From: Verrucomicrobiota bacterium
Lineage (GTDB): Bacteria > Verrucomicrobiota > Verrucomicrobiia > Limisphaerales > UBA1096
Direction: 5' to 3'
Length of the DNA stretch: 14,438 nt
Assembly (NCBI GenBank): GCA_015658765.1
Contig: DQOE01000280.1
Location: 1-14,438, forward strand
Numbering within the stretch: the stretch's first letter is position 1; each line of letters starts with the position of its first letter. The notes beneath the pieces were generated by a model. The model did not search any database. It was not told the origin of the DNA and saw nothing but the letters and a program-made list of their open reading frames with translations. The translations under genes and the position numbers were made by a program. This document shows positions 1-14,438 of the stretch, piece after piece.

Positions 1-822
1 GGAGGGCTGATCGGCAGCCACATCGCACGCGCCGCTGCGGTGCATGCGCCGGGCTGGCGGGTTCGCGCATTGATGCGTGACGACTTCGATTTGACGGACT
101 TCCCGGAAGTTCAACGGCAATTCGAGGCCGACCTGCCGCAACACGTGATTCACTGCGCCGCGATGAGTGACCCCGCGGTTTGCGAGACGCAACTCGCTCA
201 AACCCGGTTCGTAAACCGGGAGGCGACATTTTTCCTTTCCGGCTTGGCACAGGACATCCCGATGATCTTTTTTTCGTCGGATCTCGTGTTCGACGGCAAA
301 CACGGGCACTACACGGAGGAAGACGAACCGTCGCCGCTGACGGTGTACGCCCGCACTAAGGCGGAGGCGGAAGCGTTGGTTCTCGCCAATCTGCTGCATA
401 GCGTGGTACGCACATCGCTCACCGTCGGCAAATCGCCAAGCGGCGATCGCGGCATTGAGGAACAACTCAGGCATCGCTGGGCCAAGGGCGACACCGTGAA
501 GTTGTTCGCCGACGAGTATCGCAGCCCCATCCCGGCAGAAGTCACCGCCCGCGCAACTTGGGAACTCACCTTGGCCAAGCGCCCCGGCCTGTACCACTTG
601 GCCGGCAGCCAGCGGATGTCGCGCCTCGAAATTGGCCGGGCCATCGCCGAGAGAAATCCAGAGTGGAATCCAAAAATCGAGTCGTGCAGCCTGCGTGACT
701 ACGATGGCCCGCCAAGGGCAGCCGACACGTCGCTCGATTGCAGCAAACTCCAGCAACTTCTTTCGTTCCCGCTGACCGGGCTGAGCGAATGGCTTGGATC
801 CAGCGCAAAACAACCCGCATGA
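1..822 (+). CDS. RmlD-like NAD(P)-dependent sugar-nucleotide reductase, 5'-truncated
   Basis: The reading frame is open from base 1, so the start lies upstream of the window. The first codons read GGLIGSH, the end of an N-terminal Rossmann GxxGxxG/S dinucleotide-binding loop. SSDLVFDG at about residues 92-99 (numbered from the first codon) corresponds to the STDYVFDG segment of dTDP-4-dehydrorhamnose reductase, and YARTK supplies the extended-SDR YxxxK pair (Y116, K120). The 273 visible codons are close to the full length of RmlD (about 290-300). Family members reduce 4-keto nucleotide sugars or act as related regulatory subunits such as MAT2B, so the substrate cannot be fixed from sequence. 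The stop codon overlaps the gluQ start as ATGA at 819-822, which implies co-translation. The family call is solid. The specific rhamnose role is not shown, and no other rhamnose gene is visible. Confidence 0.85.
   Translation, partial: GGLIGSHIARAAAVHAPGWRVRALMRDDFDLTDFPEVQRQFEADLPQHVIHCAAMSDPAVCETQLAQTRFVNREATFFLSGLAQDIPMIFFSSDLVFDGKHGHYTEEDEPSPLTVYARTKAEAEALVLANLLHSVVRTSLTVGKSPSGDRGIEEQLRHRWAKGDTVKLFADEYRSPIPAEVTARATWELTLAKRPGLYHLAGSQRMSRLEIGRAIAERNPEWNPKIESCSLRDYDGPPRAADTSLDCSKLQQLLSFPLTGLSEWLGSSAKQPA
569..580. repeat. Iterated palindrome copy (11 of 12 match)
   Basis: Reads CCTTGGCCAAGC, with the exact TTGGCCAA core at 571-578. It encodes Leu-Ala-Lys in the RmlD-like gene. Confidence 0.7.
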
Positions 823-1664
823 AGCCGTATCGCGGCCGCGTCGCCCCAACCCCCACCGGTCTGCTTCACCTTGGTCACGCGCAGACGTTTCGGATCGCCC
901 ACCAACGCGCACGCCAAGCCGGCGGCAAACTGGTGTACCGGACAGAAGACCTCGACCCACAACGGTGCAAAACTGAATTCGCGGATGCCGCGCTGGAAGA
1001 TTTGAAATGGCTGGGCATCGACTGGGACGAGGGGCCGGACTGCGGCGGCGAATACGCGCCGTACATCCAAAGCCAACGGATCGAGCGTTACCGTGAACTC
1101 CTCGAAACGCTGAAAACCCTCGGCTTGGTTTACCCGTGCCGCTGCTCACGCAAGGATGTGATTGAAGCCGTAACGGCACCGCACGAAACCGGCGAAGAGC
1201 CGCTGTACCCAGGAACCTGCCGCCCCGCGCTTGGCCAAGCGGCCACTTTCGAAGCAGACACCGCAGCCCGAGTCAACTGGCGATTTCGCGTGCCAAGCGC
1301 AGAGCCGGTCGTATTTGAAGACGGCCGCCTCGGGCAACAGTCATTCACCGCCGGCAGGGACTTCGGCGACTTCGTTTTTTGGCGTCACGACGATGTGCCC
1401 AGTTACCAGTTGGCCGTGGTGGCCGACGATCACGACATGGGTATCACCGAGGTTGTTCGCGGCGAGGATTTGCTCAAATGCACCGCCCGCCAACTGCTCA
1501 TTTACCGCGCACTTGGCTGGGAAGCACCGGCGTTCCATCATTGCCCGTTGGTCACCGATGAAGACGGCGAGCGCCTGGCCAAGCGCCACGACTCACTCAG
1601 TTTGAAAGCCATGCGCGAAGCCGGGCTTACACCGGAAATGATCCGCGCAAAATTCATTGAATAG
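819..1664 (+). CDS. gluQ: Glutamyl-Q tRNA(Asp) synthetase
   Basis: This is a truncated glutamyl-tRNA synthetase paralogue that activates glutamate and attaches it to the queuosine base in the anticodon of tRNA-Asp. At 281 residues it has only the class I catalytic core, with no anticodon-binding domain, which is typical of GluQRS. Visible motifs are RVAPTPTGLLHLGHAQT with the HIGH-type HLGH at residues 17-20, a zinc site C107-x-C109 ... Y130-x3-C134, and a KMSKS-type loop LAKRHDS near residue 255. An in-frame ATG at 738 would add 27 residues. I chose ATG 819 because the family starts just before the RxAPTPTG motif and because ATGA at 819-822 overlaps the upstream stop. No ribosome-binding site precedes it, so translation probably depends on the upstream gene. 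The KMSKS loop is encoded by a near copy of the iterated palindrome (CTGGCCAAGCG from 1575). Confidence 0.93.
   Translation: MKPYRGRVAPTPTGLLHLGHAQTFRIAHQRARQAGGKLVYRTEDLDPQRCKTEFADAALEDLKWLGIDWDEGPDCGGEYAPYIQSQRIERYRELLETLKTLGLVYPCRCSRKDVIEAVTAPHETGEEPLYPGTCRPALGQAATFEADTAARVNWRFRVPSAEPVVFEDGRLGQQSFTAGRDFGDFVFWRHDDVPSYQLAVVADDHDMGITEVVRGEDLLKCTARQLLIYRALGWEAPAFHHCPLVTDEDGERLAKRHDSLSLKAMREAGLTPEMIRAKFIE
1229..1240. repeat. Iterated palindrome GCTTGGCCAAGC, exact
   Basis: Exact 12-mer inside gluQ, read in the Ala-Leu-Gly-Gln-Ala frame and followed by G. It lies about 10 residues after the zinc-site Cys134. Confidence 0.85.
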
Positions 1665-1757
1665 CGCCCCACACCCACAAGTCGTTGGCTTGCTATCTGG
1701 CAAAAAGGCAGGTTGCGGAAACGGGAGTTCCCGGTAGCATTTGAGCAAGGGCGAACA

Positions 1758-1772
1758 CCCAAGCCTCTTGGG
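1758..1772 (+). other. Perfect 6-bp hairpin in leader of the DUF1549/1553 gene
   Basis: CCCAAG-CCT-CTTGGG is a perfect stem with a 3-base loop. It ends six bases before the ribosome-binding site at 1779. The right arm runs into CTTGGGCCAAACG, which resembles the iterated palindrome with one inserted G. No T-run follows, so it is not a normal terminator. It could affect access to the ribosome-binding site, or it may be a decayed palindrome copy. Confidence 0.35.
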
Positions 1773-1778
1773 CCAAAC

Positions 1779-1784
1779 GAGGTG
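1779..1784 (+). promoter_or_regulatory. Ribosome-binding site GAGGTG
   Basis: GAGGTG lies 5 bases before ATG 1790 and fixes that start. It is the only well-placed Shine-Dalgarno sequence I see in front of a major gene in the window. The rest of the 125-bp gap after gluQ shows no recognisable promoter. Confidence 0.7.
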
Positions 1785-1789
1785 AAACA

Positions 1790-4549
1790 ATGAAACAGTC
1801 TTCGACGATTTACGCGTTAGCGGCAGTAATGGCGATCATTGCCGCGCCGCAGGCCAAGTCGCTACCCACTCCGTCGGAACGGTTTGGGGGCGAGGCAAAT
1901 GGAGAGGTGGCGAGTTTCCGGAAGCACGTGATTCCACTGCTTGGTGTCCGGGGCTGTAACGGGAGGGAGTGCCACGGCTCCTTCTCCGGCAAAGGCGATT
2001 TTCAGCTCTCGCTCTTCGGCTACGAGTTCGACAAGGATCACGAAGAGATCGTTCGCGACGAGGACGAGATTCGCGTCAACCGCGACCAGCCAGAAAACAG
2101 CCTCATCCTCATGAAGCCCACCATGCAGGAAAAGCACAAGGGCAAACTGCGTTTTGAAAAAGACAGCTGGGAATATCGCCTGCTTTTGAGTTGGATAAAG
2201 GGTGGCGCAAAAAACGATTCAAAACTGACCCCGGAATTCGAGCGCCTCGAAATCGTTCCCCCGTCATTGCGCTTCACCGAGTCCGGGCAAACGCAGCGAC
2301 TTCAGGCAATCGTCCACTGGAAGGACGGTTCAATCGAGGACGTCACCGAGTTGACTCGGTTTCGCAGCAACGATGAATCGATCGCCACGGTGAACGAGAT
2401 CGGTATCGCCACCGCCACCGGTAGCGGTGACACACACATCATCGCCTTTTACGACAACGGCATTCAACCGGTTCCGATTTACCGGCCCGTCTCCGACAAA
2501 CTTGGCGACGCCTACCCCGAGGTCGCCGCCACAAGTGAAGTGGATCAATTAATTGTGGCCAAGCTGAGAACGCTGGGGATCGTACCGTCCGAAAAATGCA
2601 CCGACGAGGAATTCCTGCGTCGCGTGAGTCTCGACCTCACAGGCTCGCTTCCGCTCCCGGGTGAGATCCGCTCCTTCGTCGCCAGCAAATCCCCCGTCAA
2701 GCGCTCGAGGAAAATCGATGAACTGCTCAAGCGCCCCGCTTATGCCGCGTGGTGGACCACCAAGCTTTGCGACTACACCGGAAACAACGCCCAGAACCTG
2801 AACGATCCCGTTTTCCGGAACGACATGGCTCGCCAGTGGTACGAGTGGATTTATCACCGCGTGAAAACCAATGTGCCATATGACCAAATTGCGGAGGGGT
2901 TGATCATGGCGACCAGCCGCCAAAAGGGCGAAAGTTTTCAACATTTTGCCACGGGAATGAGCCATCACTACAAAAAGGAGGATCCGGTTCCCTTCCACAC
3001 CCGCGAGTCAATGCCGTTTTACTGGGCTCGCAGAAACGTCCGCAAACCGGAGGAAAAAGCACTCAGTTTCGCTCACGCCTTCCTTGGCGTCCGCATACAG
3101 TGCGCACAATGCCACAAGCACCCTTTCGACCAATGGACACAGCAGGATTTCAAAAAGTTCCAAGCCTTCTTCGAGCCCATCCAATACAAGGCGAACACGC
3201 CGAGGGGCGAGAAGGGTTCCGGTATGAATTACCAGTCGCTGATGAAAGAAATCGAGCAGTTTGTCGGCTACGACAAGAAAAAGAAAAACAACAGGAAACA
3301 ATTGCGTGAGGAGATTCGGAAACGCGCCAACGCCGGCAAACCGGTTCCATGGCAGGAACTCCACATCGTCAACACAAAGCCGAGATCCAAGGGCGGCAAA
3401 AACAAAAAGAAGCAGAATTACTCAAGGCGTGTGATCACGCCAAGTGTGCTTGGCGGGGAGAATGTTCACTTGACCGAGTACGATGATCCGCGCCAACCGC
3501 TGATGGACTGGCTTCGATCCGGGGACAATCCCTACTTCGCCCCGGCGTTCGTCAACCGTGTTTGGCACAACCACTTTGGCCGTGGCATTGTTGATCCCGT
3601 GGACGACATGAACCTGGCCAACCCGCCCTCCAACAAGCCATTGCTCGATCACTTGGCCAAGGGCTTCGCCCAAAGCGGCTACGATATGCAATGGCTGCAC
3701 CGCACCATTTTAAACAGCGACACCTATCAGCGCAGTTGGCGTCCCAACGACACGAACAGGCATGACGAGCGCAACTTCAGCCGCATGACCATTCGCCGGC
3801 TGCCCGCCGAGGTCGTTGCGGATGCGATCACACAGGCCACCGCGTCGAAATCCCGGGTTGACGCCATGACTGCCACCTCAAAGGGTCGCACCATTGGCCC
3901 GGACACTTTGTCCAGAAACAACAAGAATATCTCCTCGCTGAATTATGCGTTGTCGGTTTTCGGCAAGCCGGACCGGACGGCAAACTGCGACTGCGAACGC
4001 TCCAACGAGCCCACCCTGCTTCAAGCCATCTTCACGCGGAACGACCCGGCGATGAACCTGTTGCTCGATGGCAGAAATCGAAAGAGCAAAGGCTGGATTC
4101 AGGAAATTAACGAGTGGTACTCCGGTAAAACGAAATCAACTGCACAAGCCGCAAAAAGCAGACAACACAAGGTTCTGGTCGGCCAGCGAAAGAAACTCAT
4201 GGCCAAGGCCCCAAAAAAACCGGCGAACAAGCAAAATGCACGGGCCATGCAGCGTTATCGGATTTCCGCAAAAAGGCACACCCAAGCGCTCCAGGAATTA
4301 AACCAGAAAATTCGCAATCTTAATGGCGGCGAACCAAAACAACCCGCAAACACTCGACGCCCAATCACCGCGCGGGAACTCGACCGACTGATCAACGAAA
4401 CGTTCCTCCGAACCTTGAGCCGTTTCCCGACCGGGACGGAACTCGCCAAGGCACGGGTTGATGTGGGCGGCTCAACTGACAAGATAGCCGGCGTGAAGGA
4501 CCTGCTTTGGGCGCTGCTCAACACCAAGGAGTTCCTAGCGAACCATTAA
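1790..4549 (+). CDS. Secreted DUF1549/DUF1553 protein with Ig-like segment
   Basis: This 919-residue exported protein belongs to the large planctomycete/verrucomicrobial family that pairs with DUF1501 proteins. Its biochemical role is unknown. Domain order: a Sec-type signal peptide (residues 1-23, hydrophobic core from about 7, AxA-like end); a cytochrome-like region with C56-x4-C61-H62 and the FxLSLFGYE segment usual after it; a bacterial Ig-like (BIG2-type) segment at about 153-235; DUF1549 at about 250-460, ending with the conserved C438-A-Q-C441-H442 and HPFDQWTQ; then DUF1553 from about 565, with FVNRVWHNHFGRG. Two lysine-rich, probably disordered insertions stand out at about 493-545 and 778-860, the second with heptad-like character. 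Either cysteine motif could bind heme or metal, but binding is not proven. The DUF1501 gene follows 17 bases after the stop, indicating an operon. Some family members sit in polysaccharide-degradation loci, but no such gene is adjacent here. Confidence 0.92.
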   Translation: MKQSSTIYALAAVMAIIAAPQAKSLPTPSERFGGEANGEVASFRKHVIPLLGVRGCNGRECHGSFSGKGDFQLSLFGYEFDKDHEEIVRDEDEIRVNRDQPENSLILMKPTMQEKHKGKLRFEKDSWEYRLLLSWIKGGAKNDSKLTPEFERLEIVPPSLRFTESGQTQRLQAIVHWKDGSIEDVTELTRFRSNDESIATVNEIGIATATGSGDTHIIAFYDNGIQPVPIYRPVSDKLGDAYPEVAATSEVDQLIVAKLRTLGIVPSEKCTDEEFLRRVSLDLTGSLPLPGEIRSFVASKSPVKRSRKIDELLKRPAYAAWWTTKLCDYTGNNAQNLNDPVFRNDMARQWYEWIYHRVKTNVPYDQIAEGLIMATSRQKGESFQHFATGMSHHYKKEDPVPFHTRESMPFYWARRNVRKPEEKALSFAHAFLGVRIQCAQCHKHPFDQWTQQDFKKFQAFFEPIQYKANTPRGEKGSGMNYQSLMKEIEQFVGYDKKKKNNRKQLREEIRKRANAGKPVPWQELHIVNTKPRSKGGKNKKKQNYSRRVITPSVLGGENVHLTEYDDPRQPLMDWLRSGDNPYFAPAFVNRVWHNHFGRGIVDPVDDMNLANPPSNKPLLDHLAKGFAQSGYDMQWLHRTILNSDTYQRSWRPNDTNRHDERNFSRMTIRRLPAEVVADAITQATASKSRVDAMTATSKGRTIGPDTLSRNNKNISSLNYALSVFGKPDRTANCDCERSNEPTLLQAIFTRNDPAMNLLLDGRNRKSKGWIQEINEWYSGKTKSTAQAAKSRQHKVLVGQRKKLMAKAPKKPANKQNARAMQRYRISAKRHTQALQELNQKIRNLNGGEPKQPANTRRPITARELDRLINETFLRTLSRFPTGTELAKARVDVGGSTDKIAGVKDLLWALLNTKEFLANH
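3651..3662. repeat. Iterated palindrome core copy
   Basis: ACTTGGCCAAGG, with the exact TTGGCCAA core at 3653-3660. Read as Leu-Ala-Lys in the DUF1553 region. Confidence 0.65.
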
Positions 4550-4566
4550 TTACCAACGTGCGAACC

Positions 4567-5859
4567 ATGAAACATAAACTTTGCTGTGACGGAATTCTTC
4601 GGCGGGATTTTCTCAAGGCCGGTGCCCTTGTCGGAGCCGGCCTTGGCCTGTCTGATTACTTAAGCTTGGCCAAGGCGGGCTCCGTTGCAGGCAAAGCCAA
4701 GGCGGCTGTTTACGTGCGCTTGGCCGGCGGGCCCAGCCACATGGATACATTTGACATGAAGCCAGACGCCCCGGACACGCACCGCGGTGAATTCAAGGAA
4801 ATCAGCACCAACGTGCCGGGCATCCGAATTTCCGAGCATCTTCCGAAACTGGCCAGGTGCGCCGACAAGTATGCCATTCTTCGAGGCGTCAGCCACACCT
4901 TGGCGGCGCATCGGTTGGGCGCGGAATACCTGATGACCGGGAACCGTCCCCTGCCCTCGCTGAAGTATCCGACTTACGGCGCCGTGATCAGCAAGGAACT
5001 CGGTGGCCCAAGGGACATACCCTGTTCTGTGGCCATTCCCAAGGGAGCCGCAGCACCTACCGGTTTTCTCGGCTTGGAATATGGCCCGCTCGAAACCGGG
5101 GCCACACCCAAGGCCGGTCAACCGATGAACATCCGTGGCCTGTCACTCTCCAATGGCCTGACCTTGGCCGACATCGACCGCAGAGACAGCTTGGTCAAGC
5201 GGTACGACACCGCTTTTGGTTCGTTCGCCAGGGAGGACAAGGTGCTGAGCGGCATGGATGAGTTCAGCCAAAAAGCCCACGAGATGATGCGCTCCGGCCG
5301 CACCCGTGAGGCGTTTGACCTGACGCGTGAGCCCGCAGCCATTTCCGATTTGTTCGGCGACGGCAATTTCTCCCAAAGCTGCCTGCTGGCCACTCGCCTC
5401 ATCGAGGCCGGCGTGCGCCTGGTTTCAATTCAATTCGGCGGTTGGGACACCCACCGGGACAACTTCAACCGGCTCAAGGACAACAATCTGCCCAACCTCG
5501 ACGACGGCTTGGCCGGTTTGTTCAGGGCGTTGGACTCGAAGGGGCTGCTGAACTCCACCGCCGTGTTTGTAACCGGCGAATTCGGCCGGACGCCCAAGAT
5601 CAACCAACGCGGCGGGCGCGACCACTATCCACGCGCAATGTTCTGTCTGCTCGCCGGCGGCGGCATGCAGGGCGGCCAAGTGGTCGGCGCCTCAGACGCC
5701 AAGGGCGAAGGTCCGAGGGATCGCGTCATCTCACCCGATGACGTTGCCGCGACGTTTTACCACGCGCTGGGCGTTGACCACACAAAGGAATACCACACGC
5801 CGACCGGCCGACCGGTGATGATCGTCCGGCACGGCAAACTGATCCCGGAGTTGGTGTAA
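4567..5859 (+). CDS. Tat-exported DUF1501 protein
   Basis: The 430-residue product belongs to DUF1501, part of the alkaline-phosphatase/sulfatase-like fold, and is the usual partner of DUF1549/DUF1553 proteins. The N-terminus has a twin-arginine signal ([10 protein letters not shown]12-R13, then a Gly/Ala/Leu-rich segment), so it is probably exported folded. Conserved family segments are [13 protein letters not shown] at about residues 57-69, FGGWDTH near 290, and GEFGRTPKI with GGRDHYP near 340-355. The enzymatic activity is not known. The frame is open back to 4507, but ATG 4567 places the Tat motif at the normal distance. GTG 4558 is also possible. No good ribosome-binding site precedes either, so coupling to the gene ending at 4549 is likely. 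Confidence 0.92.
4664..4675. repeat. Iterated palindrome copy (11 of 12 match)
   Basis: GCTTGGCCAAGG, with the exact core at 4666-4673. Read as Ser-Leu-Ala-Lys-Ala at the end of the Tat signal peptide of the DUF1501 protein. Confidence 0.7.
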
Positions 5860-5884
5860 CACCCGAAACCACAAACGCTTTTCC

Positions 5885-5907
5885 CCGCGCTTGGCCAGGC
5901 GGTTTTT
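5885..5907 (+). terminator. Probable intrinsic terminator built on an altered palindrome
   Basis: CCGC (5885-5888) pairs with GCGG (5899-5902). After a one-base bulge, CT pairs with AG around a five-base loop, and TTTTT follows at once (5903-5907). It begins 26 bases after the DUF1501 stop. The stem contains GCTTGGCCAGGC, a one-base variant of the iterated 12-mer. A second half copy, TGGCCAAG, and a T6 run follow at 5911-5924. Confidence 0.6.
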
Positions 5908-5946
5908 GCATGGCCAAGTTTTTTGTCTCGCAAAACCGGAGGAATC

Positions 5947-6000
5947 TTGTCTTCAATCCCAGCTTTTCAGCGGCATGAACGAACAGATTGTCATCCTTGA
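5947..6000 (+). other. Possible short leader ORF overlapping the guaA start
   Basis: GGAGG (5938-5942) stands four bases before a TTG at 5947 that opens 17 codons ending with TGA at 5998-6000, past the guaA ATG at 5975 in another frame. The guaA ATG itself has no ribosome-binding site, and no in-frame start lies near GGAGG. The site may be chance, or this may be a translated leader that feeds ribosomes to guaA. Confidence 0.2.
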
Positions 6001-7516
6001 TTTTGGTTCCCAATACACGCAGGTGATCGCCCGGCGCATCCGAGAGTGCAAGGTTTACTCCACCATTGTCCACTACAACACGCCCGCCGCCGTCATCGCG
6101 GAAATGAACGCCAGCGGGATTATTCTCTCCGGCGGCCCGTCCAGCGTTTACGCCAAGGATGCCCCGTTGCCGGACAAGGCGATTTTCAAACTGGGCATTC
6201 CCGTTCTCGGCATCTGCTTCGGGTTGCAGGTGATGGCCAGGTTTTTGAAGGGCAAAGTCGAGCGCGGGCAAAAACGGGAATACGGCAAGGGAACGCTTCG
6301 CGTGAAAAATGCCCAGTGCCGACTCTTCGACGCCTTGCCAAGGGATCTGCAGGTTTGGAATTCACACGGCGACAAACTCACCAAGCTGCCGGACGGTTTC
6401 AAAGCGGTGGCCACCACTGAGAACTCCGGGTTTGCGGCAATCGAAAATGCCAAGGCCCGTTTTTACGGCCTGCAATTTCACCCGGAAGTCGTCCACACGC
6501 CCAGGGGCAAAAAAATCATTTCAAACTTCGTGCGCAAAATCTGCGGCTGCGGCCGCAAGTGGACGATGCGCAGCTATGTCGAGCAGGCCGTCGAGGAGAT
6601 CCGAGTCCAGGTCGGCAAGGAAAAAGTGATCCTCGGCTTGAGCGGCGGTGTGGATTCCAGCGTGGCGGCGGCGCTCATTCACAAGGCCATCGGGAAGCAG
6701 TTGACCTGCATCTTTGTGAACAACGGCGTGCTGCGCGCCAACGAGGCGGGAGTTGTCAAAAAAGTTTTTGACCGCAATTTCAAGGTCAAGCTCCACTACG
6801 AGGACTCGACGAATTTGTTCATGCGCAAACTGCGTGGCGTCACCGATCCTGAGACAAAGCGCAAGATTATCGGCAACACGTTCATCGATGTTTTCCAGAA
6901 AGCCACACGCAAGGTTGGCAAGGCAAAATTTCTCGCACAAGGCACGCTGTATCCCGACGTCATCGAGTCAGTCCCGATCGGTGGCAATCCGGCGGCGCTG
7001 ATCAAGAGCCATCACAACGTCGGCGGCTTGCCGAAGAAAATGAAGTTCGAACTGATCGAACCGCTGCGCTGCCTGTTCAAGGACGAGGTTCGCGAACTCG
7101 GCGCTCAACTGGGCCTTCCGAGGGAGATCGTCATGCGCCAACCGTTCCCCGGCCCCGGCCTGGCCGTTCGCATCCTCGGTGAAGTCACGCCCGAGCGCTG
7201 CGAGATTCTCCGCAACGCCGACACGATCGTCGTAGAGGAAATGAAGTCCAACAACCTGTATTACAAAATCTGGCAGAGCTTCGCGGTTCTGCTACCGGTG
7301 CGAAGTGTCGGCGTGATGGGCGACGAACGCACTTACGATTACACGATTGCCGTGCGAGCAGTGGAGTCGAAGGACGGCATGACCGCCGACTGGGTGAAGC
7401 TGCCGTACAAGGTGCTCGAGACACTCTCGAGCCGGATCATCAACGAGGTCAGCGGCGTGAACCGCGTTTGTCTCGACATCTCCAGCAAGCCGCCGGCGAC
7501 CATCGAGTGGGAGTAA
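5975..7516 (+). CDS. guaA: GMP synthase (glutamine-hydrolysing)
   Basis: Converts XMP, glutamine and ATP to GMP, the last step of guanine nucleotide synthesis in the cytoplasm. At 513 residues it is close to the E. coli enzyme (525). The class I glutamine amidotransferase domain is N-terminal, with nucleophile C81 in GICFGLQ and H169/E171 in FHPE. The ATP-pyrophosphatase domain follows with the P-loop SGGVDSS at 223-229. The C-terminal dimerisation domain carries [15 protein letters not shown] and ends in PPATIEWE, as expected. The frame extends upstream to a TTG at 5891 inside the terminator region. ATG 5975 is preferred because [14 protein letters not shown] is the family's normal beginning. 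It stands alone between a terminator and a convergent gene, so it is probably monocistronic. The gene contains no exact copy of the iterated palindrome. Confidence 0.97.
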
Positions 7517-7541: not shown

Positions 7542-7638
7542 ATGTCGACGCTACGCGATTCCAAGTCCGGTTGTTGCTGCCGTTATTCCCGGATGGATTC
7601 TGAATCAGAAAAGAGTATCGACGGCGCCCCAAAAAACT

Positions 7639-9048
7639 TTAGTCGGAACTTTTCCGCCCGTTGACTGTGCTGCTGATCTCGCCGGCGTGGAGGTGTGTCC
7701 GCAGCGCCTGGCCGGGTTTCGCGTTTTTGGCATCCTTCAAAACCACGCCTGTCCCGGCGTCGCGAGTGATCGAGTAGCCGCGAGCCAAGACGGACTTGGG
7801 CGAGAGTAAGTCAAGGCGACTTGTCGCCTGCTCAAGGCTTGCAACGCATTCACCCAGGGCACGGCGCGGCGCCTCAGCCAAGCGGCGTTGCAACCAGCCC
7901 AATTGCTCCCTGCGCCTGGCAAGCAAAGCCGTTGGCCGAAGTGATACCAGGCGTTGTCTGGCCAAGCGCAGGCGGTCTCGCCGATCAACCACTCCCTGCT
8001 TGACCAGGCGATTCATGTCGTCGATCTGGTTGTCGAGACGCTGAAAGGAGTCATCGAGCGCCCGGCGCGGATGCGCGCGGCCAAGCCGGTGGGAGAGGCT
8101 CGACAACTCCCGCCTGACCGACTCCACGCCGCGCTTGGCCAAGCGGCGCAAGTGCGCCGCCGCCGAGGCCAAGTCCGCCCGCGAGGCAAACACATCCTCG
8201 GTGATCAACTCGCCGGCGACACTCGGCGTTGCTGCCCGGACATCGGCCACGAAGTCAGTGATCAAAATATCAATCTCATGCCCCACGGCGGACACCACCG
8301 GCAGTGCCGACTCGTGCACGGCGCGGGCCAACACCTCCTCGTTGAACGCCCAAAGATCCTCCAGGCTCCCGCCGCCTCGCGTCAGCAAAATCAAATCCAG
8401 CGGCTCACTCTGCCTGGTGCTCCATTGGTTCAACCGGTGAACCGCCTTGGCCATTTCCGCTGCGGCTGTTGCGCCCTGCACACGGCACGGCTCCAGCACG
8501 ATTTGCAGGGAGGGGTTGCGCCGCAAAACGACATGCAGCACATCCCGAATCGCCGCGCCGGTCGGCGAGGTGACAAGCCCGATCCGCGCGGGAAAACCGG
8601 GCAACGTCCGCTTGCGCCCGGGCGCGAACAGGCCCTCGGCCTCCAACTTGCGCTTCAGTTTCTCAAACTTGACCTGCAACTCTCCACGCCCCTGCAGTTC
8701 CACCTTGCGAACAATCAGTTGATACTGCCCCCTCGCCTCGAACAGCGTGACGTCCCCCTGCAGGAGCACCTGCGTTCCGTCCTCAATCAGCGAACGGTTC
8801 TCCGCGTCGGTTCCGCGAAACAGCGCGCAACCCAACTGGCCTTTCTCATCCTTGATGCCGAAATAAATGTGACCCGAGGATTGCCTTCGCAGCCCGGTGA
8901 TTTGCCCCTCCACCCAGACGGTACCGAGTTGATTTTCCAGCAGCCCCTTGGCCTTTCGGTTCAACTCGGCAACGCCATAAACCTTGCGCGCCTCCCCCTG
9001 CTTCGGCAATCCGCCGAAGTCCCACAGGCTCTGTTGCTCCCGGCTCAT
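7639..9048 (-). CDS. xseA: Exodeoxyribonuclease VII large subunit
   Basis: Catalytic subunit of exonuclease VII, which degrades single-stranded DNA in both directions during repair, together with the small subunit XseB. The 469 residues match the family (about 450). An N-terminal OB-fold (about 22-120) is followed by the conserved catalytic region with GLVTSPTGAAIRD at 158-169, RGGGSLEDLWAFNEE at 224-238 and SAVGHEID at 253-260. Then comes a long charged, probably coiled-coil region and the C-terminal LARGYSITRD segment. The start codon at 9046-9048 overlaps the upstream ymdB-like stop as ATGA, indicating one transcript with coupled translation. The xseB gene is not next to it and is presumably elsewhere. 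One exact copy of the iterated palindrome encodes RLAKRG in the coiled region. Confidence 0.96.
   Translation of the reverse strand: MSREQQSLWDFGGLPKQGEARKVYGVAELNRKAKGLLENQLGTVWVEGQITGLRRQSSGHIYFGIKDEKGQLGCALFRGTDAENRSLIEDGTQVLLQGDVTLFEARGQYQLIVRKVELQGRGELQVKFEKLKRKLEAEGLFAPGRKRTLPGFPARIGLVTSPTGAAIRDVLHVVLRRNPSLQIVLEPCRVQGATAAAEMAKAVHRLNQWSTRQSEPLDLILLTRGGGSLEDLWAFNEEVLARAVHESALPVVSAVGHEIDILITDFVADVRAATPSVAGELITEDVFASRADLASAAAHLRRLAKRGVESVRRELSSLSHRLGRAHPRRALDDSFQRLDNQIDDMNRLVKQGVVDRRDRLRLARQRLVSLRPTALLARRREQLGWLQRRLAEAPRRALGECVASLEQATSRLDLLSPKSVLARGYSITRDAGTGVVLKDAKNAKPGQALRTHLHAGEISSTVNGRKSSD
8133..8144. repeat. Iterated palindrome GCTTGGCCAAGC, exact
   Basis: Exact 12-mer inside xseA, the only copy in a minus-strand gene. 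Read there as Leu-Ala-Lys-Arg. Confidence 0.85.
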
Positions 9049-9833
9049 TCTGCGGGCAACAACTCAGAGACTCGCTCGATGGAGCGCGCCTTGCCGGTTT
9101 CGTCGTCGATGTCGATCAAGGCTCCGTTTAGCATGACGCGCTTGGAGGCGACGCCAAAGCGCTGTGGCCGGTAAGTCGTGAAACGCCGCAGGATCGGCTC
9201 AATCTCGCGCCCAAGGATGCTCTCCTGCGGCCCCGTGCAACCCGCGTCACAGAGGAACGCCGTCCCTCCCGGAAACACCTGCTCGTCGGCGGTCTGCACA
9301 TGCGTGTGCGTGCCCACCACGGCGCTCACCCGGGCATCGAGAAAGCGTCCCATCGCGATTTTCTCAGACGTCGTTTCCGCGTGCATATCCACAAAAATAA
9401 TCGCCGTCTCCTTGCGCAACTCGTCCACTGCCTCGGCGGCAGCGAAGAAGGGGTTATCGATCGGCTTCATGAACGTTTGCCCCTGCAAGTTCAGCACTCC
9501 CACCGGAGGGAGACCTTCCTTTCGTGCGACGCAAAACCCCTGTCCCGGCGTGCCTTCGGGATAGTTGTGAGGGCGCACAAAACGCGGCTCGCTCTCCAGC
9601 AGCGACTCCACCTCGCGTTGATCCCACAAATGATCGCCGGACGTCATCACATCCACTCCCGCTTCAAACACCTCGCTCGCGGTCGCCGGCGTGATGCCCG
9701 AGCCGCCGGCCATGTTCTCCCCGTTGGCGACGACGAAGTCGATCCCGAGCGACTTGCGGAGGCGCGGCAAAAAATACCCCACCGCCTTGCGCCCCGGTTT
9801 CCCAACGATGTCGCCAATGAAAAGCAGCTTCAC
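9045..9833 (-). CDS. YmdB-type metallophosphoesterase (TIGR00282 family)
   Basis: The 262-residue product aligns along its whole length with the YmdB family (264 in Bacillus subtilis), a dimetal phosphodiesterase reported to act on 2',3'- or 3',5'-cyclic nucleotides and to affect biofilm and motility decisions. Metal-ligand positions are visible: D8 in GDIVG, E39-N40 in NGEN, H151 in DMHAE, and H176/H178 in GTHTH. The GNH motif reads GDH, so D67 stands where the family has Asn. The frame extends to TTG 9875. I chose GTG 9833 because VKLLFIGDIVGKPG is the normal family start. Neither start has a ribosome-binding site. The gene is first in a two-gene unit with xseA, and its stop overlaps the xseA start. 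The symbol ymdB is withheld because the function has not been shown outside Firmicutes. Confidence 0.92.
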   Translation of the reverse strand: MKLLFIGDIVGKPGRKAVGYFLPRLRKSLGIDFVVANGENMAGGSGITPATASEVFEAGVDVMTSGDHLWDQREVESLLESEPRFVRPHNYPEGTPGQGFCVARKEGLPPVGVLNLQGQTFMKPIDNPFFAAAEAVDELRKETAIIFVDMHAETTSEKIAMGRFLDARVSAVVGTHTHVQTADEQVFPGGTAFLCDAGCTGPQESILGREIEPILRRFTTYRPQRFGVASKRVMLNGALIDIDDETGKARSIERVSELLPAE

Positions 9834-9881
9834 GGGCCGCACGTTACGACACCCAACCACCCGCGCAAAGCCCAAGCGAAT

Positions 9882-9916
9882 CAGTAAGCAGTCGACAGTG
9901 AGCGGTGAGCAGTTGA
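9882..9916. repeat. Five tandem 7-bp units (consensus CAGTGAG)
   Basis: CAGTAAG, CAGTCGA, CAGTGAG, CGGTGAG and CAGTTGA follow without gaps. Every unit keeps C-R-G-T at the first four positions. Similar CAGT-rich filler is seen in intergenic DNA of Verrucomicrobiota and other groups. Function unknown. Confidence 0.7.
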
Positions 9917-9958
9917 GAAAAGGAACATGGACTGGCAGGAGGAACAGGATGGAATATC

Positions 9959-9973
9959 GAACATGGAATGTTC
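9959..9973. promoter_or_regulatory. Perfect inverted repeat GAACAT-GGA-ATGTTC
   Basis: 6-bp arms with a 3-base centre. The size and symmetry would suit a dimeric repressor operator serving the divergent genes. It also belongs to a run of related blocks (GGAACATGGA 9922-9931, GGAACAGGAT 9941-9950, CGAACATGGA 9958-9967), so it may simply be part of the filler repeat. Confidence 0.3.
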
Positions 9974-10009
9974 AAATTTGAAGTGAAACAACTGAAAACT
10001 CATTGAGAA

Positions 10010-10035
10010 TCTGCGCTCATCCGCGAAATCTGCGG
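10010..10035. repeat. 26-base imperfect direct repeat, first copy
   Basis: Matches 10087-10112 at 19 of 26 positions, and six of the seven differences are transitions. The shared core is GCTCATCC..GAAATC. The copies are 77 bp apart. Confidence 0.6.
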
Positions 10036-10045
10036 ATAAAGAACG

Positions 10046-10065
10046 TTTGTGTCCATTTGTGTTCG
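10046..10065. repeat. Two tandem 10-bp units
   Basis: TTTGTGTCCA is followed directly by TTTGTGTTCG (8 of 10 identical). It lies between the two copies of the 26-base repeat. Confidence 0.55.
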
Positions 10066-10086
10066 TTCGCGGTTGCCAAAAATAAA

Positions 10087-10112
10087 TCCATGCTCATCCA
10101 TGAAATCCGCGT
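10087..10112. repeat. 26-base imperfect direct repeat, second copy
   Basis: Partner of the copy at 10010-10035. It contains the ATG at 10100 proposed as the start of the following gene, which weakens that start and favours GTG 10172. Confidence 0.6.
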
Positions 10113-11599
10113 CCTGCTCTCATGCGCCCGCTAAACTTGAAGAGTGGCCCGCTGCGGATTATGACTTCGGCGTGCCGCTGAAAATCGCCGGAACCTCCAT
10201 CCGGCAAACTCAACTCAAGACGCGCATGCCGTTCAAGTACGGCATCGCCACCATGACTGAGGTTCCGATGGTGTTTGTCCGGGTCGAAACCGAGGTGGAT
10301 GACCGGCCGTCGTGGGGCATTTCCTCCGACCTGTTGCCGCCGAAGTGGTTCACCAAGGTGCCGGACGACCCGCTCGAGCAGGAGATCGCTGACATGCTCC
10401 GGGTGATCCGCCGAGCCATGTCCAATTCGCTCGGCGTCGAGGCTCCGACTGCCTTCGCCGCTTGGCAGACGATTTACGGGCAGCAGGCCGCTTGGGCCAA
10501 GGCCGAGAACATCGCGCCGTTGCTGGCTCACTTTGGCACGTCGCTGGTGGAGCGCGCATTGATCGAGTCGGTCTGCCGCGCCACGGGCCAACCGCTTGGC
10601 CAAGCGCTGCGCAACGGCACGCTGGGTTTTGAGCCCGGTGCGATTCACCCTGCCTTGGCCAAGCGCTCCGCCGCTGAACTGCTCCCGCAACAACCGTTGG
10701 CCAAAGTGCTCGCCCGGCACACGGTTGGCTTGGCCGATCCGTTGTCCGCCGCCGCCATCCCGGCCGATGAGTTGCTCGACGACTCGCTGCCGCAATCGCT
10801 CGACCAGTGCATTCGCGCCTATGGCCTGCGCCATTTCAAAATCAAAATCAACGGCAACCTCGACACCGATCACGAGCGCCTGCGCAGTGTTGCTGCCACA
10901 ATCGGGCAAAACGCGCCGAGTGACTACGCGTTCAGCCTCGACGGTAATGAGCAGTTCAAGTCTGTGGACGATTTTCGCAACCACTGGGCGAGTCTCTCCG
11001 CCGACGCGGAGTTGACCACTTTTTTCGAGCATCTGCTTTTTGTCGAGCAACCGTTGCACCGCGACATCGCGCTGGAGGATTCCGTGGGCGACGGGTTCGG
11101 CGACTGGCCGGATCGGCCGCCGATCATCATCGACGAATCGGATGCCACCATCAAAAGCCTGCCGCTGGCGCTGGCGCTCGGCTACGCCGGGACGAGCCAC
11201 AAAAACTGCAAGGGCATTTTCAAGGGAGTCGCCAACGCATGCCTGCTCAATGCACGGCGGGAAACCGGGCACGCGGCGGTCATGAGCGGCGAGGATTTAT
11301 GCAACGTCGGCCCGGTCGCCGTGATACAGGACTTGGCGGTGATGTCAGCGCTTGGCATCGAAAGCGTCGAGCGGAACGGGCATCATTACATGGCGGGGCT
11401 GTCGCAGTTCCCGGAAGCTACACAGCGGCAGGTGCTCGCCGCACACGCCGGGCTTTATCGCACGAGCGACCAGGGCTGGCCGACGCTCGATATTCGCGAT
11501 GGGCAGATTCACTTGCGAAGTGTCAACGACCAGCCATTCGGCACCGGCTTCGAACTCGACTTGTCGCCGTTCGAAGAGATCGGCCTCACCGCTGTATGA
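10100..11599 (+). CDS. Enolase-superfamily (MLE/mandelate racemase-like) enzyme
   Basis: 499 residues from ATG 10100. The C-terminal barrel shows the muconate-lactonizing subgroup pattern: K247-I-K249 on one strand; metal ligands D281 (SLDGNE), E316 (FVEQPL) and D345 (IIDES); and lysines K368 and K371 in SHKNCKG, near the position of the second acid/base lysine. The spacing resembles muconate lactonizing enzyme (K169, D198, E224, D249, K273). The reaction should start by abstracting a proton next to a carboxylate, but dehydration, epimerisation and cycloisomerisation cannot be told apart. The protein is longer than usual (350-450), with an insertion between D281 and E316. The start is uncertain: the frame opens at GTG 10049, ATG 10100 lies inside a repeat, and GTG 10172 (VPLKIAG) is a good alternative. 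None has a ribosome-binding site. The stop overlaps bioA as ATGA. Confidence 0.85.
   Translation: MKSASCSHAPAKLEEWPAADYDFGVPLKIAGTSIRQTQLKTRMPFKYGIATMTEVPMVFVRVETEVDDRPSWGISSDLLPPKWFTKVPDDPLEQEIADMLRVIRRAMSNSLGVEAPTAFAAWQTIYGQQAAWAKAENIAPLLAHFGTSLVERALIESVCRATGQPLGQALRNGTLGFEPGAIHPALAKRSAAELLPQQPLAKVLARHTVGLADPLSAAAIPADELLDDSLPQSLDQCIRAYGLRHFKIKINGNLDTDHERLRSVAATIGQNAPSDYAFSLDGNEQFKSVDDFRNHWASLSADAELTTFFEHLLFVEQPLHRDIALEDSVGDGFGDWPDRPPIIIDESDATIKSLPLALALGYAGTSHKNCKGIFKGVANACLLNARRETGHAAVMSGEDLCNVGPVAVIQDLAVMSALGIESVERNGHHYMAGLSQFPEATQRQVLAAHAGLYRTSDQGWPTLDIRDGQIHLRSVNDQPFGTGFELDLSPFEEIGLTAV
10594..10605. repeat. Iterated palindrome GCTTGGCCAAGC, exact
   Basis: Exact 12-mer read as Pro-Leu-Gly-Gln-Ala-Leu in the enolase-superfamily gene. 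First of three copies within 110 bp. Confidence 0.85.
10653..10664. repeat. Iterated palindrome copy (11 of 12 match)
   Basis: CCTTGGCCAAGC, read as Ala-Leu-Ala-Lys-Arg: a different frame from the copy 59 bp upstream in the same gene. Confidence 0.75.
10694..10705. repeat. Iterated palindrome core copy
   Basis: CGTTGGCCAAAG, exact 8-bp core at 10696-10703. Read as Pro-Leu-Ala-Lys-Val. Confidence 0.6.
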
Positions 11600-13008
11600 A
11601 AAAGCATCCACTCGCAAAACTCGACCAGCGGCATTTGTGGCATCCGTTCACGCAGATGCGCGACTGGCTCAAGGGCGAACCGCTGGTGATCGAGCGCGGG
11701 AAGGGTGCGCAGCTTTGGGACGTGCGCGGACGGGAGTACATCGACGCCAACTCGTCCATTTGGAGTAATCTTCACGGGCATAATCACCCGAAAATCAACG
11801 CCGCCATTCAGGGGCAATTGGGCAGAGTCGCCCACACCTCGGCGCTTGGCTTGGCCAACGAACCGGCCTCACTGCTTGGCCGGGAGCTGGTGCGCTTGGC
11901 CAACCCTCGAGCCGGCGTGACCCAGCAGCAGCCGCGTTTGGCCAAGGTGTTTTACTCGGACAACGGTTCGACCGCAGTCGAGGTGGCGCTCAAGCTGGCC
12001 TATGAGTTCGCCCGCCGCACGGGGCGCGCCCGCAAGCCAAGGTTCCTTTCGCTCGACGGCGCGTATCACGGCGACACGGTCGGGGCGGTCAGCGCAGGGC
12101 ACATCGACCTTTTTCACAAGGCGTACTCCGGCATGCTGTTCAAGACGGACAAGGTGATGTCGCCATACTGTTACCGATGCCCGTTCAACAAGGCCAAGCC
12201 GGAACGCGGCGACGCGCGCGACACCCGTAAGTGCAACTTCGAGTGCGTTGACAAAGTGGAGCAGCGATTCGCCACCCGCAAAAAACGCGGGAGCAACTAC
12301 GCCGCGCTGCTGGTCGAGCCGGGCATGCAGGGGCCGGCCGGAATGATCGCGCAGCCGAAGGGATGGCTTGGCCGCGTCGCGCAGATTGCACAGGGACACG
12401 GCACCCAACTCATCGCCGACGAAGTGATGACCGGCTTGGGCCGCGCTGCTTGCCGGCATTTTGCCAGCCACGACGAAGGCGTGCAGCCGGATTTCCTCTG
12501 CCTGGCCAAGGGACTAACCGGCGGCTATCTGCCGATGGCCGCCACGCTGACAACGCAGGAAGTGTTCGACGCGTTTCTTGGCGACTATTCCGAGTTGAAG
12601 ACTTTCTTTCACGGGCACAGCTACACCGGCAACCAACTCGGCAGTGCCGCCAGCCTGGCCAGTATCGGGTTGCTGAAGACCGCCGCAAGCAGGCGCAAAA
12701 AACTTGCCGCGAATCTCCACACCGAAGCCAAGCGGCTTTGGAGCCTGTCTCAAGTTGGTGACATCCGGCAGGCGGGATGCGTGCTGGCGGTTGAATTGGT
12801 TCGCGACTGGCGGACACGCGAGCCGTTTAAGTTGGCCGAGCAGGCTGGGATCCGCGTCTGCGACGGCTTGGCCAAGCGCGGCGTGCTGACGAGGTCGGTC
12901 GGCAACGTGATCGTCATCATGCCGCCGTTCTGCACGACGCAGCAACAGGTCAAAAAAATCTTCTCCGCGCTGCACAACTCGATTGAAGAATCCCTCAACA
13001 AACCATGA
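11596..13008 (+). CDS. bioA: Adenosylmethionine-8-amino-7-oxononanoate aminotransferase
   Basis: PLP-dependent class III aminotransferase of biotin synthesis that makes 7,8-diaminopelargonate from KAPA, normally with S-adenosylmethionine as amino donor. The 470-residue product has the BioA N-terminal signature DQRHLWHPFTQM, then WSNLHGHNHP, DNGSTAVEVA, DGAYHGDTVGAVS, IADEVMTGLGR with D275, and CLAKGLTGGYLP with the PLP lysine K305. A cysteine-rich insertion, C192-x2-C195-x17-C213-x3-C217, sits in the middle, and E. coli BioA lacks it. The frame runs back to 11239, but ATG 11596 overlaps the upstream stop as ATGA and gives the family's usual start. No bioF, bioD or bioB is visible. The neighbours are an enolase-superfamily enzyme and a Ste24 protease. 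Another class III transaminase activity is possible but less likely given the N-terminal signature. Confidence 0.92.
   Translation: MKKHPLAKLDQRHLWHPFTQMRDWLKGEPLVIERGKGAQLWDVRGREYIDANSSIWSNLHGHNHPKINAAIQGQLGRVAHTSALGLANEPASLLGRELVRLANPRAGVTQQQPRLAKVFYSDNGSTAVEVALKLAYEFARRTGRARKPRFLSLDGAYHGDTVGAVSAGHIDLFHKAYSGMLFKTDKVMSPYCYRCPFNKAKPERGDARDTRKCNFECVDKVEQRFATRKKRGSNYAALLVEPGMQGPAGMIAQPKGWLGRVAQIAQGHGTQLIADEVMTGLGRAACRHFASHDEGVQPDFLCLAKGLTGGYLPMAATLTTQEVFDAFLGDYSELKTFFHGHSYTGNQLGSAASLASIGLLKTAASRRKKLAANLHTEAKRLWSLSQVGDIRQAGCVLAVELVRDWRTREPFKLAEQAGIRVCDGLAKRGVLTRSVGNVIVIMPPFCTTQQQVKKIFSALHNSIEESLNKP
11849..11947. repeat. Cluster of three TTGGCCAA cores
   Basis: Exact cores at 11851-11858, 11896-11903 and 11938-11945, spaced 45 and 42 bp, all read as Leu-Ala-Asn/Lys in bioA. 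Flanks differ from the 12-mer at one or both outer positions. Confidence 0.65.
12866..12877. repeat. Iterated palindrome GCTTGGCCAAGC, exact
   Basis: Exact 12-mer near the end of bioA, read as Gly-Leu-Ala-Lys-Arg-Gly and followed by G. Confidence 0.85.
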
Positions 13009-14270
13009 CCTCTTTCGCCTTCGTTGCCCTTGGGCTGATTTTGATTCGCTATTTTTTTGAGCTTTGGCTCGATGGGGTGAATGCGGCTCATGTGCGGAAA
13101 CACGCCGATGAAGTTCCGGAGGCATTCCGGGAAATCATGGACGAGGCGACGTACCAGAAATCGGTGCAGTACACTCTGGCCAAGGCTCGCTTCGGCACGG
13201 TCTCGGACAGTTACAGCACGGCGGTGCTCTGTGCCCTGCTCTTCAGCGGTTTGCTGGCATCACTCTTTGCCCAAGTCGTGGAGCGGACCGGTCAATCCGC
13301 ATGGGGACTGGCCATCGCGCTGTGGGCAGTGATCCTGCTGATGTCGCTGCTGAGCCTGCCGTTTTCATGGTGGTCGCAGTTTCGGCTTGAGGAGCAGTTT
13401 GGGTTCAACAACTCGACGCAGCGCACTTGGTGGTCGGATCAGGTCAAGGGGGTCGCGCTGAGTTTTGCCATCGGCGTGCCACTGCTGGCGCTGATACTTT
13501 GGCTGGTCGGGGCAAGCGGCGATTATTGGTGGCTGTGGGCGTGGGGCGTGGTCGTGGTTTTTCAATTGCTGATGAGCGTGTTGGCGCCAATTTTCATTCT
13601 TCCCCTGTTCAACAAGTTCACGCCGTTGCCGGAAGGCTCGCTGAAAGACCGGTTGAAAAACCTGGCCGAGCGCACCGGGTTTATCAACGCCGGCATCCAA
13701 GTAATGGACGGCAGCAAGCGCTCCAAGCACTCAAACGCCTTTTTTACCGGCTTGGGCAAGGGCCGGAGAATTGCGCTGTTCGACACTCTCGTGGAGCAGA
13801 TGAGCGAGCAGGAACTTGAAGCCGTCTTGGCACATGAGATCGGCCATTACAAACTCCGGCACGTGCCGAAAATGATCACGTGGTCGTTTGTCACCACGTT
13901 GGCTGGTTTTTGGGGGTTGAGTTTGCTGGAGGGACAGTCCTGGTTCACAGGTGCGTTCGATTTTGGTAGCGAAGCCGGAATTGCCCCGGCGTTTTTGCTG
14001 TTTGGCCTCCTCGCCGGGACGGTGACGTTTTGGCTCTCACCGCTGTCGAGCCTTTGGTCGCGCAAGTTCGAATACGAGGCGGACGCCTTCGCGGCAGACG
14101 CGGTGAACACCAGTGAACCGATGATCACGGCGCTCCGAAAACTCAACCGGGAAAACCTGAGCAATCTCACCCCGCACCCGTGGTACAGCGGCTTTCATTA
14201 CGATCACCCGGCATTGCTTGAGCGCGAATCTGCGCTGAAAGACTGGAATCCGGGCGATCGGGCCGCATGA
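13005..14270 (+). CDS. Ste24-type integral-membrane M48 zinc metalloprotease
   Basis: 421 residues, the size of eukaryotic CAAX prenyl protease 1 (Ste24) and its bacterial homologues, and longer than HtpX (about 290). An N-terminal M48_N region carries several hydrophobic segments at about 3-15, 67-90, 100-120, 147-167 and 173-200. The catalytic domain has the conserved GSKRSKHSNAFFTGLG segment, the zinc motif H277-E-I-G-H281, and third ligand E356 in EYEADAFA. Further hydrophobic segments lie at about 290-310 and 325-345. Bacteria generally lack protein prenylation, so its role is probably membrane-protein quality control, but this is inferred. The start overlaps the bioA stop as ATGA (13005-13008). 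The biotin neighbour suggests co-transcription rather than shared function. Confidence 0.93.
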   Translation: MTSFAFVALGLILIRYFFELWLDGVNAAHVRKHADEVPEAFREIMDEATYQKSVQYTLAKARFGTVSDSYSTAVLCALLFSGLLASLFAQVVERTGQSAWGLAIALWAVILLMSLLSLPFSWWSQFRLEEQFGFNNSTQRTWWSDQVKGVALSFAIGVPLLALILWLVGASGDYWWLWAWGVVVVFQLLMSVLAPIFILPLFNKFTPLPEGSLKDRLKNLAERTGFINAGIQVMDGSKRSKHSNAFFTGLGKGRRIALFDTLVEQMSEQELEAVLAHEIGHYKLRHVPKMITWSFVTTLAGFWGLSLLEGQSWFTGAFDFGSEAGIAPAFLLFGLLAGTVTFWLSPLSSLWSRKFEYEADAFAADAVNTSEPMITALRKLNRENLSNLTPHPWYSGFHYDHPALLERESALKDWNPGDRAA

Positions 14271-14346
14271 TATTCAGCTTTTGCCGCTTGGCCAAGCAGG
14301 GTAGGTTTCCGCGCGCCCTTGGGAGAGGCACGACTTTGAATTCGAT
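14271..14346 (+). other. Short spacer with one exact palindrome copy, no clear terminator
   Basis: The 76 bases after the protease stop contain GCTTGGCCAAGC 16 bases downstream, with no T-run behind it. A purine-rich GGGAGAGG lies at 14320-14327, about 19 bases before the next ATG, which is too far for a normal ribosome-binding site. Confidence 0.4.
14286..14297. repeat. Iterated palindrome GCTTGGCCAAGC, exact, intergenic
   Basis: The only exact 12-mer outside a gene, just downstream of the Ste24-type gene. Confidence 0.85.
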
Positions 14347-14438
14347 ATGCGACTGAAATTATCCATCACATTTCTGACCGGTTTTTTGGCGCTTGGCCAA
14401 GCGATCACCGGCCTGGCAAGCGACCCGTTCATCAGCGA
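14347..14438 (+). CDS. Start of a secreted protein, 3'-truncated by window end
   Basis: ATG 14347 opens 30 codons that run off the window. The product begins MRLKLSITFLTGF and has the layout of a Sec signal peptide: two early basic residues, a hydrophobic core, and a likely cleavage after LA before SDPFIS. The frame carries no stop. A mature start like DPFIS is seen in some secreted verrucomicrobial proteins, including lamin-tail-domain ones, but six residues cannot decide this. The signal-peptide core is partly encoded by the iterated palindrome. I do not recognise the protein. Confidence 0.6.
   Translation, partial: MRLKLSITFLTGFLALGQAITGLASDPFIS
14391..14402. repeat. Iterated palindrome GCTTGGCCAAGC, exact
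   Basis: Exact 12-mer read as Ala-Leu-Gly-Gln-Ala within the hydrophobic core of a signal peptide, 105 bp after the previous exact copy. Confidence 0.85.

Follow-up and report, generated by a model that had tools for sequence, protein, structure and literature searches.

The function of highly iterated palindromes (HIPs) has been unsettled since HIP1 was described, the main ideas being methylation-directed repair and a role in chromosome structure. DNA uptake sequences (DUS, USS) occur at about one copy per kb, show graded matches and clade specificity, and have demonstrated roles in uptake; to our knowledge, the known ones are not palindromic. In the case of cyanobacteria, one study reports at least one putative enzyme for the highly over-represented sequences of the genomes that carry them, as well as some HIP1 genomes without an enzyme for CGATCG (PMC4390886), and selection and a role in chromosome structure have been proposed for HIP1 (PMC6604393). 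Here we describe an iterated palindrome, the 12-mer GCTTGGCCAAGC with its 8-bp core TTGGCCAA, found in a stretch of 14,438 nucleotides (contig DQOE01000280.1, hereafter the window) of the Verrucomicrobiota bacterium assembly GCA_015658765.1 and in the genomes of its relatives. The source assembly comprises 2.24 Mb in 433 contigs, is 71% complete and contains the window as contig 35. With a probability of roughly 60%, the palindrome may be the binding site of a nucleoid-architecture protein that wraps or clusters DNA. Among the open-licence literature matches listed, we recognised no paper describing this motif as a repeat in bacteria, nor any describing a HIP whose copies are helically phased.

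Abundance, distribution and conservation

The 12-mer is present in 617 copies in the source assembly, where its reversed control occurs once, and in 131 kb of the same genome 103 copies of the 8-mer were counted against 9.4 expected under a third-order Markov model; the ratio of observed to expected copies was about 11-15 in the two largest of the early samples. Neither outcome that was to refute the original prediction, which was made from the letters of the window, was observed: the motif is not confined to the window, and its count is far from the Markov expectation. The 8-mer had the top z score among palindromic 8-mers in the source genome and in 16 other motif-rich genomes, in a sample from which G007 was left out and to which 11 of the 17 genomes contributed just 4.7-17.7 kb. 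The consensus of the palindrome is S-CGCTTGGCCAAGCG-S, with a strict GGCC core and looser outer positions. The flanks lengthen the palindrome to CGCTTGGCCAAGCG, conservation falling outward (+1 G 0.80-0.88, +2 C 0.57-0.75, +3 G 0.54-0.73 in five genomes) and being weaker in G020. One-mismatch variants of CTTGGCCAAG number 248 and 214 at the outer two positions and 66, 39 and 31 at the inner ones, and two of the rare inner variants also exceed their tiny expectation.

Genome-wide, the palindrome is read in all three frames, most commonly as Leu-Ala-Lys, and it occurs both in genes and between them, with most sites being intragenic and a core density of about 0.3-1.1 per kb across the genome, genes included. 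Noncoding DNA is denser in the motif in five of six rich genomes, G015 showing the reverse. Within the window there are 14 cores, against 0.46 expected from dinucleotide shuffles, six exact 12-mers, and 24 places within two mismatches of the 12-mer against 1.2 expected. All 14 cores and six 12-mers of the original prediction were recovered, with one start shifted by a single base (10697, not 10696). Its chance figure for the 8-mer (0.2) is lower than the one from shuffling. Of the 14 cores in the window, 10 are read as Leu-Ala-Lys/Asn, 2 as Leu-Gly-Gln, and 2 are intergenic. Since the element is over-represented genome-wide, genic and intergenic, and read in several frames, it is a highly iterated palindrome in the broad sense. 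The initial observation is confirmed in a stronger form than first claimed, and the HIP1-like reading of it, as a genome-wide palindrome acting at the level of DNA, is borne out by the counts, the frames and the survey of the order.

That survey covered 320 genomes, of which 21 (the source and 20 congeners) belong to the focal genus of uncultured marine Verrucomicrobia, with assemblies 61-93% complete, and 299 lie outside it. The source and 17 of the 20 congeners, hence 18 of 21 genomes, hold 144-1837 copies, while genomes outside the genus hold 0-22 and a reversed palindrome of the same composition is rare; high abundance within the order is restricted to one genus. The nearest named records are the uncultured Verrucomicrobia assemblies UBA673, ERR599127_bin.44 and UBA8010, with 94, 85 and 81% identity in one protein. 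The three poor congeners (G001, G005 and G019) have 6, 8 and 13 copies as a set and a GC content of 0.40-0.41. In a midpoint-rooted tree of the xseA protein from 20 genomes they form one clade (support 100/100), nested in a group with the motif-rich G010, G012, G003, G004 and G016, and therefore loss of the motif alongside falling GC is the simplest reading. The motif set of G020 (GC 0.50, 144 copies) looks partly eroded. No clear replacement motif was seen in G001, G019 and G005 among 684 6-mers and 60 7-mers.

Traces of the palindrome, or of similar elements, were also observed elsewhere. Genomes of family f55 (e.g. G172, G174, G183, G185, G189) contain 9-22 12-mers and zero reversed controls, a faint trace outside the genus. 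A 13.6 kb locus of Verrucomicrobia subdivision 3 (L024, AM4_bin-735) holds 11 copies of a different palindrome, GGCATGCC, where 0.6 would be expected; this may be a further HIP, belonging to another lineage of the group. A close motif pair is present in 11 viral loci with 2-6 cores each; the viral contigs L254 and L257, with 5 and 6 copies of TTGGCCAA in 13.4 and 9.9 kb, possibly represent viruses of the focal genus.

Conservation was followed in 146 locus-to-genome comparisons, which share genomes and are not independent. At 65-70% identity 121 of 304 sites were conserved, compared with 5% of control 8-mers, and at 75-80% identity 115 of 251, compared with 14%. Where Leu-Ala-Lys was conserved at 65-70%, identical codons were seen in 40 of 69 cases if the motif encoded it and in 0 of 22 if another coding did; the corresponding figures for Leu-Gly-Gln were 36 of 40 and 0 of 2. 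Above 85% identity the advantage of motif codons shrinks or vanishes (Leu-Gly-Gln, 9/15 vs 8/14 at 85-90%). For the sites of the window alone, in the close relatives G011, G015 and G014 the numbers kept (6/11, 9/14 and 3/8) are near background (5.5, 7.6 and 3.3 expected), in G017, G008 and G013 they reach 7/10, 9/12 and 7/10 with about 2 expected, and in G020 none of 10 is kept. The comparison with sister genomes proposed in the original prediction showed sites to be kept far above background, synonymous positions included. An origin by insertion of mobile elements was considered and rejected, because an inserted copy would be expected to differ from its aligned orthologous place at more than 4 of 8 positions, and the window shows no such case.

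Helical phasing and the candidate protein

Spacing was analysed for 1107 sites in 1.28 Mb from seven genomes; removal of near-duplicate orthologous pairs reduced 2756 pairs up to 3 kb apart to 2674, of which 329 lie at 200 bp or less. The distances of these 329 pairs follow a period of 10.40 bp (bootstrap 10.35-10.45) with a phase near zero (R 0.33), a degree of phasing not reached once in 4000 jittered sets or in another 4000 in which jittering kept the frame. It was found, always with a phase near zero, in same-frame pairs (n=105, p 9e-7), pairs within one gene but in different frames (n=124, p 2e-4), pairs with both sites non-coding (n=34, p 4e-4) and mixed coding/non-coding pairs (n=66, p 1e-4), these Rayleigh p values assuming independent pairs. 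When adjacent gaps alone are taken, 109 of 288 are in phase and 28 anti-phase. The helix repeat of B-form DNA is about 10.4 bp and that of RNA helices about 11 bp; with R falling to 0.02 at a period of 11 bp, the observed period is therefore that of B-form DNA and not of an RNA helix.

Phasing persists without G008 (n=116, R 0.33) and is significant in G008 (p 2e-11), G016 (0.002) and G000 (0.02) taken singly, pairs being too few in G020 for a figure. Sites with at most one mismatch give 554 pairs (R 0.29), near-match sites around perfect ones are phased at most ranges, and the signal fades out at about 200 bp. No phasing was detected in 2854 pairs of non-motif Leu-Ala words or in non-motif Leu-Ala-Lys words (n=26), and of 249 non-motif 6-mers the only ones to stand out are pieces of the motif's flanks. 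Below 200 bp there are 1.5-1.8 times as many pairs as expected, and at 300-1000 bp 0.66-0.73 times as many. Between clusters, gap lengths show mild regularity at most, their coefficient of variation being 0.66-1.14 across six genomes. The reversed control was phased in the poor genomes (n=19, R 0.45, p 0.02), which was taken as chance among many tests. Two further ideas were dropped. One was motif drift in the AT-rich congeners (TTAGCTAA and others), where a weak excess was accompanied by unphased near-matches (n=39, R 0.07). The other, hinted at by an initial scan, was that A-tracts are offset from the motif by half a helix turn; random positions gave similar amplitudes, partly as a window-edge effect.

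These properties are consistent with the palindrome being a putative site bound by a protein that recognises the sequence specifically, probably as a dimer, with sites kept by selection across the genome, genes included. Neighbours up to about 200 bp apart lie on the same face of B-DNA, and from this same-face spacing we infer that bound dimers touch or share one scaffold. Such a protein would wrap or cluster DNA cooperatively and may act as a factor of nucleoid architecture, not as a regulator of single promoters. Of the three roles suggested in the original prediction, that of a chromosome-organising site fits best, because the sites are helically phased and conserved.

Several observations weigh against this reading. 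G008 contributes 195 of the 329 pairs, and phasing is not significant in G015 (p 0.1), G010 (0.2) and G013 (0.6), which have few pairs. One-mismatch sites alone are unphased at 130-200 bp (n=67, p 0.4), and non-motif Leu-Ala-Arg words are phased (n=33, R 0.52), being read as presumed one-mismatch copies of the motif. Furthermore, the majority of clusters consist of one site (294 of 426 in G008), conservation is no higher for clustered than for isolated sites (166/348 vs 95/204), and of the five gaps under 200 bp in the window two (59 and 45) are out of phase.

The genus's single member of the Lrp/AsnC family is tentatively predicted to bind the motif. The family was searched because its proteins wrap DNA with several palindromic sites, and this was done before its promoter was inspected. 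PF01037 is found in 17 of the 21 genus genomes, once in each, the G006 copy being split between two contigs. The protein of 159 aa (e.g. L387:150-629) matches the Lrp ligand domain with 57.9 bits (cut-off 25), and its predicted structure (mean pLDDT 65), with three N-terminal helices and an Lrp-type domain, finds Lrp/AsnC structures at a TM of about 0.45. Palindromic sites in same-face arrays, a trait of Lrp/AsnC operators, are present here. Among the 18 motif-rich genomes, 15 were read at the lrp promoter, and in 14 of these 15, which are related and hence not independent, an exact core lies 23-55 bp before the ATG, G018 having two one-mismatch copies instead. Two exact copies occur in six of the 15, 12 bp apart in G008, G016, G010, G004 and G003 and 29 bp apart in G011; in the remaining promoters the second copy is degenerate. 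For comparison, with gene starts from a simple caller, a core between -70 and the ATG was counted in 95 of 937 genes and a 12-bp tandem in 3 of 937, and upstream motifs persisted in 6 of 28 and 4 of 40 ortholog pairs (10/68, reciprocal pairs counted twice). The poor G001 and G005 have degenerate remnants only (0/2 exact), and no copy with zero or one mismatch occurs in any of the 11 outgroup lrp promoters. The conserved pair resembles an autoregulatory operator, through which the protein would control its own gene. In both L209 and L195 the gene directly upstream of lrp looks like that of a GspF/PilC-type inner-membrane protein, which is our assumption.

The assignment is, on the other hand, weakened by the score of the AsnC-type helix-turn-helix (19.2 bits), which is under the Pfam cut-off of 27. 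G001 and G005 keep a nearly identical Lrp helix-turn-helix, 33 of 37 motif-lacking genomes from other families have an Lrp ortholog, and the presence of the protein does not track the presence of sites. A still bolder picture, to be held with slightly more reserve, is that of a sequence-coded bacterial chromatin, in which hundreds to nearly two thousand near-perfect 14-bp palindromes, spread and maintained by one genus and partly in same-face clusters of up to about 200 bp, might be bound by one wrapping protein, most likely the sole Lrp/AsnC member, which would also mark its own promoter, to form nucleosome-like complexes chromosome-wide.

Competing explanations

In the case of a DNA-uptake signal, competent cells would favour fragments with the motif, and molecular drive would raise it to about one copy per kb, mostly without other function. 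The density and graded near-matches resemble uptake sequences as generally known, the dip in pair density at 300-1000 bp fits the little gain expected from a second copy per fragment, and the ComEC family is found in 9 of the 17 denser genomes and in none of the four lowest (G001, G005, G019, G020). However, ComEC was not found in 12 of the 21 assemblies, which are 61-93% complete, including the motif-rich G010, G004, G012, G006, G009 and G015, whereas xseA was found in 20 of 21; at that completeness the missing ComEC is not decisive. Uptake does not predict helical phasing. This explanation is regarded as unlikely.

It is also quite unlikely that the motif is primarily an element of promoter type for a global transcription regulator, the genic copies being by-products. 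The higher density of noncoding DNA would agree with such a role, as would the enrichment of the first and last tenths of genes (136 and 102 of 876 sites counted) and the lrp promoter copies, which by eye overlap the place of the -35 box. Yet most sites are intragenic, convergent, divergent and tandem spacers are alike in density (1.73, 1.79 and 1.45 per kb), and promoter copies are poorly kept between orthologs whereas genic ones are kept. A preference for terminators or promoters was looked for, and none was clear.

According to the methylation model, the sites would be GGCC or TGGCCA targets of an orphan methyltransferase that spread through biased mismatch repair. The motif includes both sequences, a model of this kind exists for cyanobacterial HIPs (PMC4390886), and G008 encodes one C5-methyltransferase whose best solved relative is M.HaeIII. 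This enzyme (L003:358-1899), fused to an excisionase-type helix-turn-helix, is the only one found in the genus. A search for four families in the 21 genomes, other families and DNA phosphorothioation lying outside it, detected PF01555 and PF02086 in none, PF00145 in one (G008) and PF02384 in three at about 20 bits, the one scanned being PrmC; single misses mean little in assemblies of such completeness, but a shared gene should show. With the four families nearly absent, one true DNA methyltransferase in one genome, and helical phasing that the model does not predict, the methylation or mismatch-repair mark suggested in the original prediction has become improbable. Finally, a by-product of composition, codon use, protein repeats (e.g. 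coiled-coil Leu-Ala-Lys heptads) or neutral biased repair is most improbable. In its favour, Leu-Ala-Lys is read more often than anything else, and half a heptad measures 10.5 bp; against it, phasing extends to non-coding and cross-frame pairs and is absent from non-motif Leu-Ala words, the conservation seen at synonymous positions at 65-85% identity is confined to the motif codons, and the same-composition reversed palindrome is rare.

Sites in the window and comparison with known systems

The sites of the window are listed below. A gene of 475 aa at 10172-11599 has no Pfam or NCBIfam match at E 0.001.

Table 1. Copies of the palindrome in the 14,438-nt window.
Position	Strand	Site	Location and spacing
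571..578	.	TTGGCCAA	RmlD-like gene, Leu-Ala-Lys-Arg frame
1229..1240	.	exact 12-mer	Glu/Gln-tRNA-synthetase-like gene, Leu-Gly-Gln-Ala frame
3653..3660	.	TTGGCCAA	DUF1549/DUF1553 gene
4666..4673	.	TTGGCCAA	DUF1501 gene
8133..8144	.	exact 12-mer	xseA
10594..10605	.	exact 12-mer	first of a close trio (gaps 59 and 42 bp)
10655..10662	.	TTGGCCAA	second of the trio starting at 10594
10697..10704	.	TTGGCCAA	third of the trio starting at 10594, 42 bp (four helix turns) past the second
11851..11858	.	TTGGCCAA	bioA, first of a close trio (gaps 45 and 42 bp)
11896..11903	.	TTGGCCAA	bioA, second of the bioA trio
11938..11945	.	TTGGCCAA	bioA, third of the bioA trio, 42 bp past the second
12866..12877	.	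exact 12-mer	bioA
14286..14297	.	exact 12-mer	intergenic, past the M48 peptidase gene
14391..14402	.	exact 12-mer	intergenic, 105 bp (about ten helix turns) past the 14286 site

The palindrome adds an independent case from a second phylum, in genomes that almost lack the common DNA methyltransferase families, and it combines signs of selection with B-DNA helical phasing. The 10.4 bp phasing of site pairs is a simple statistic that can be applied to HIP1 and other hyper-abundant motifs; in one cyanobacterial plasmid stretch HIP1, with 26 sites in 50 kb, was too sparse for such a comparison. The idea of an architectural role can be tested with one purified protein and one oligonucleotide.

HIP1 (GCGATCGC) and the alternate HIPs of cyanobacteria are likewise hyper-abundant palindromes with about one copy per kb, genic and intergenic, but HIP1 differs from GCTTGGCCAAGC in sequence and belongs to another phylum. 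Cyanobacterial genomes with such motifs are reported to have a putative cognate enzyme (PMC4390886), whereas the common methyltransferase families are nearly absent here. DNA uptake sequences, as generally known, share the density of about one per kb, the graded matches and the clade specificity, yet they are not known to be palindromic and their roles in uptake have been shown, whereas for the present motif an uptake role is conjectural. With H-NS filaments the motif may have in common that the arrangement of high-affinity sites directs the assembly of nucleoid structure (PMC5418058), although the motif of H-NS is AT-rich and loose and the one described here is a strict GC-rich palindrome. 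As regards Lrp/AsnC proteins, the respective studies report a DNA foreshortening of 115-156 bp by wrapping for Sa-Lrp (PMC3584215) and an octamer with a 15-bp semipalindromic site for BarR (PMC10201364). Palindromic sites of about 15 bp, several per operator, wrapping by an octamer and control of the own gene (PMC10201364, PMC3584215) are features of Lrp/AsnC operators that the present case may share; the known operators, however, are located at promoters and have looser sites, whereas here hundreds to nearly two thousand near-identical sites are distributed genome-wide.

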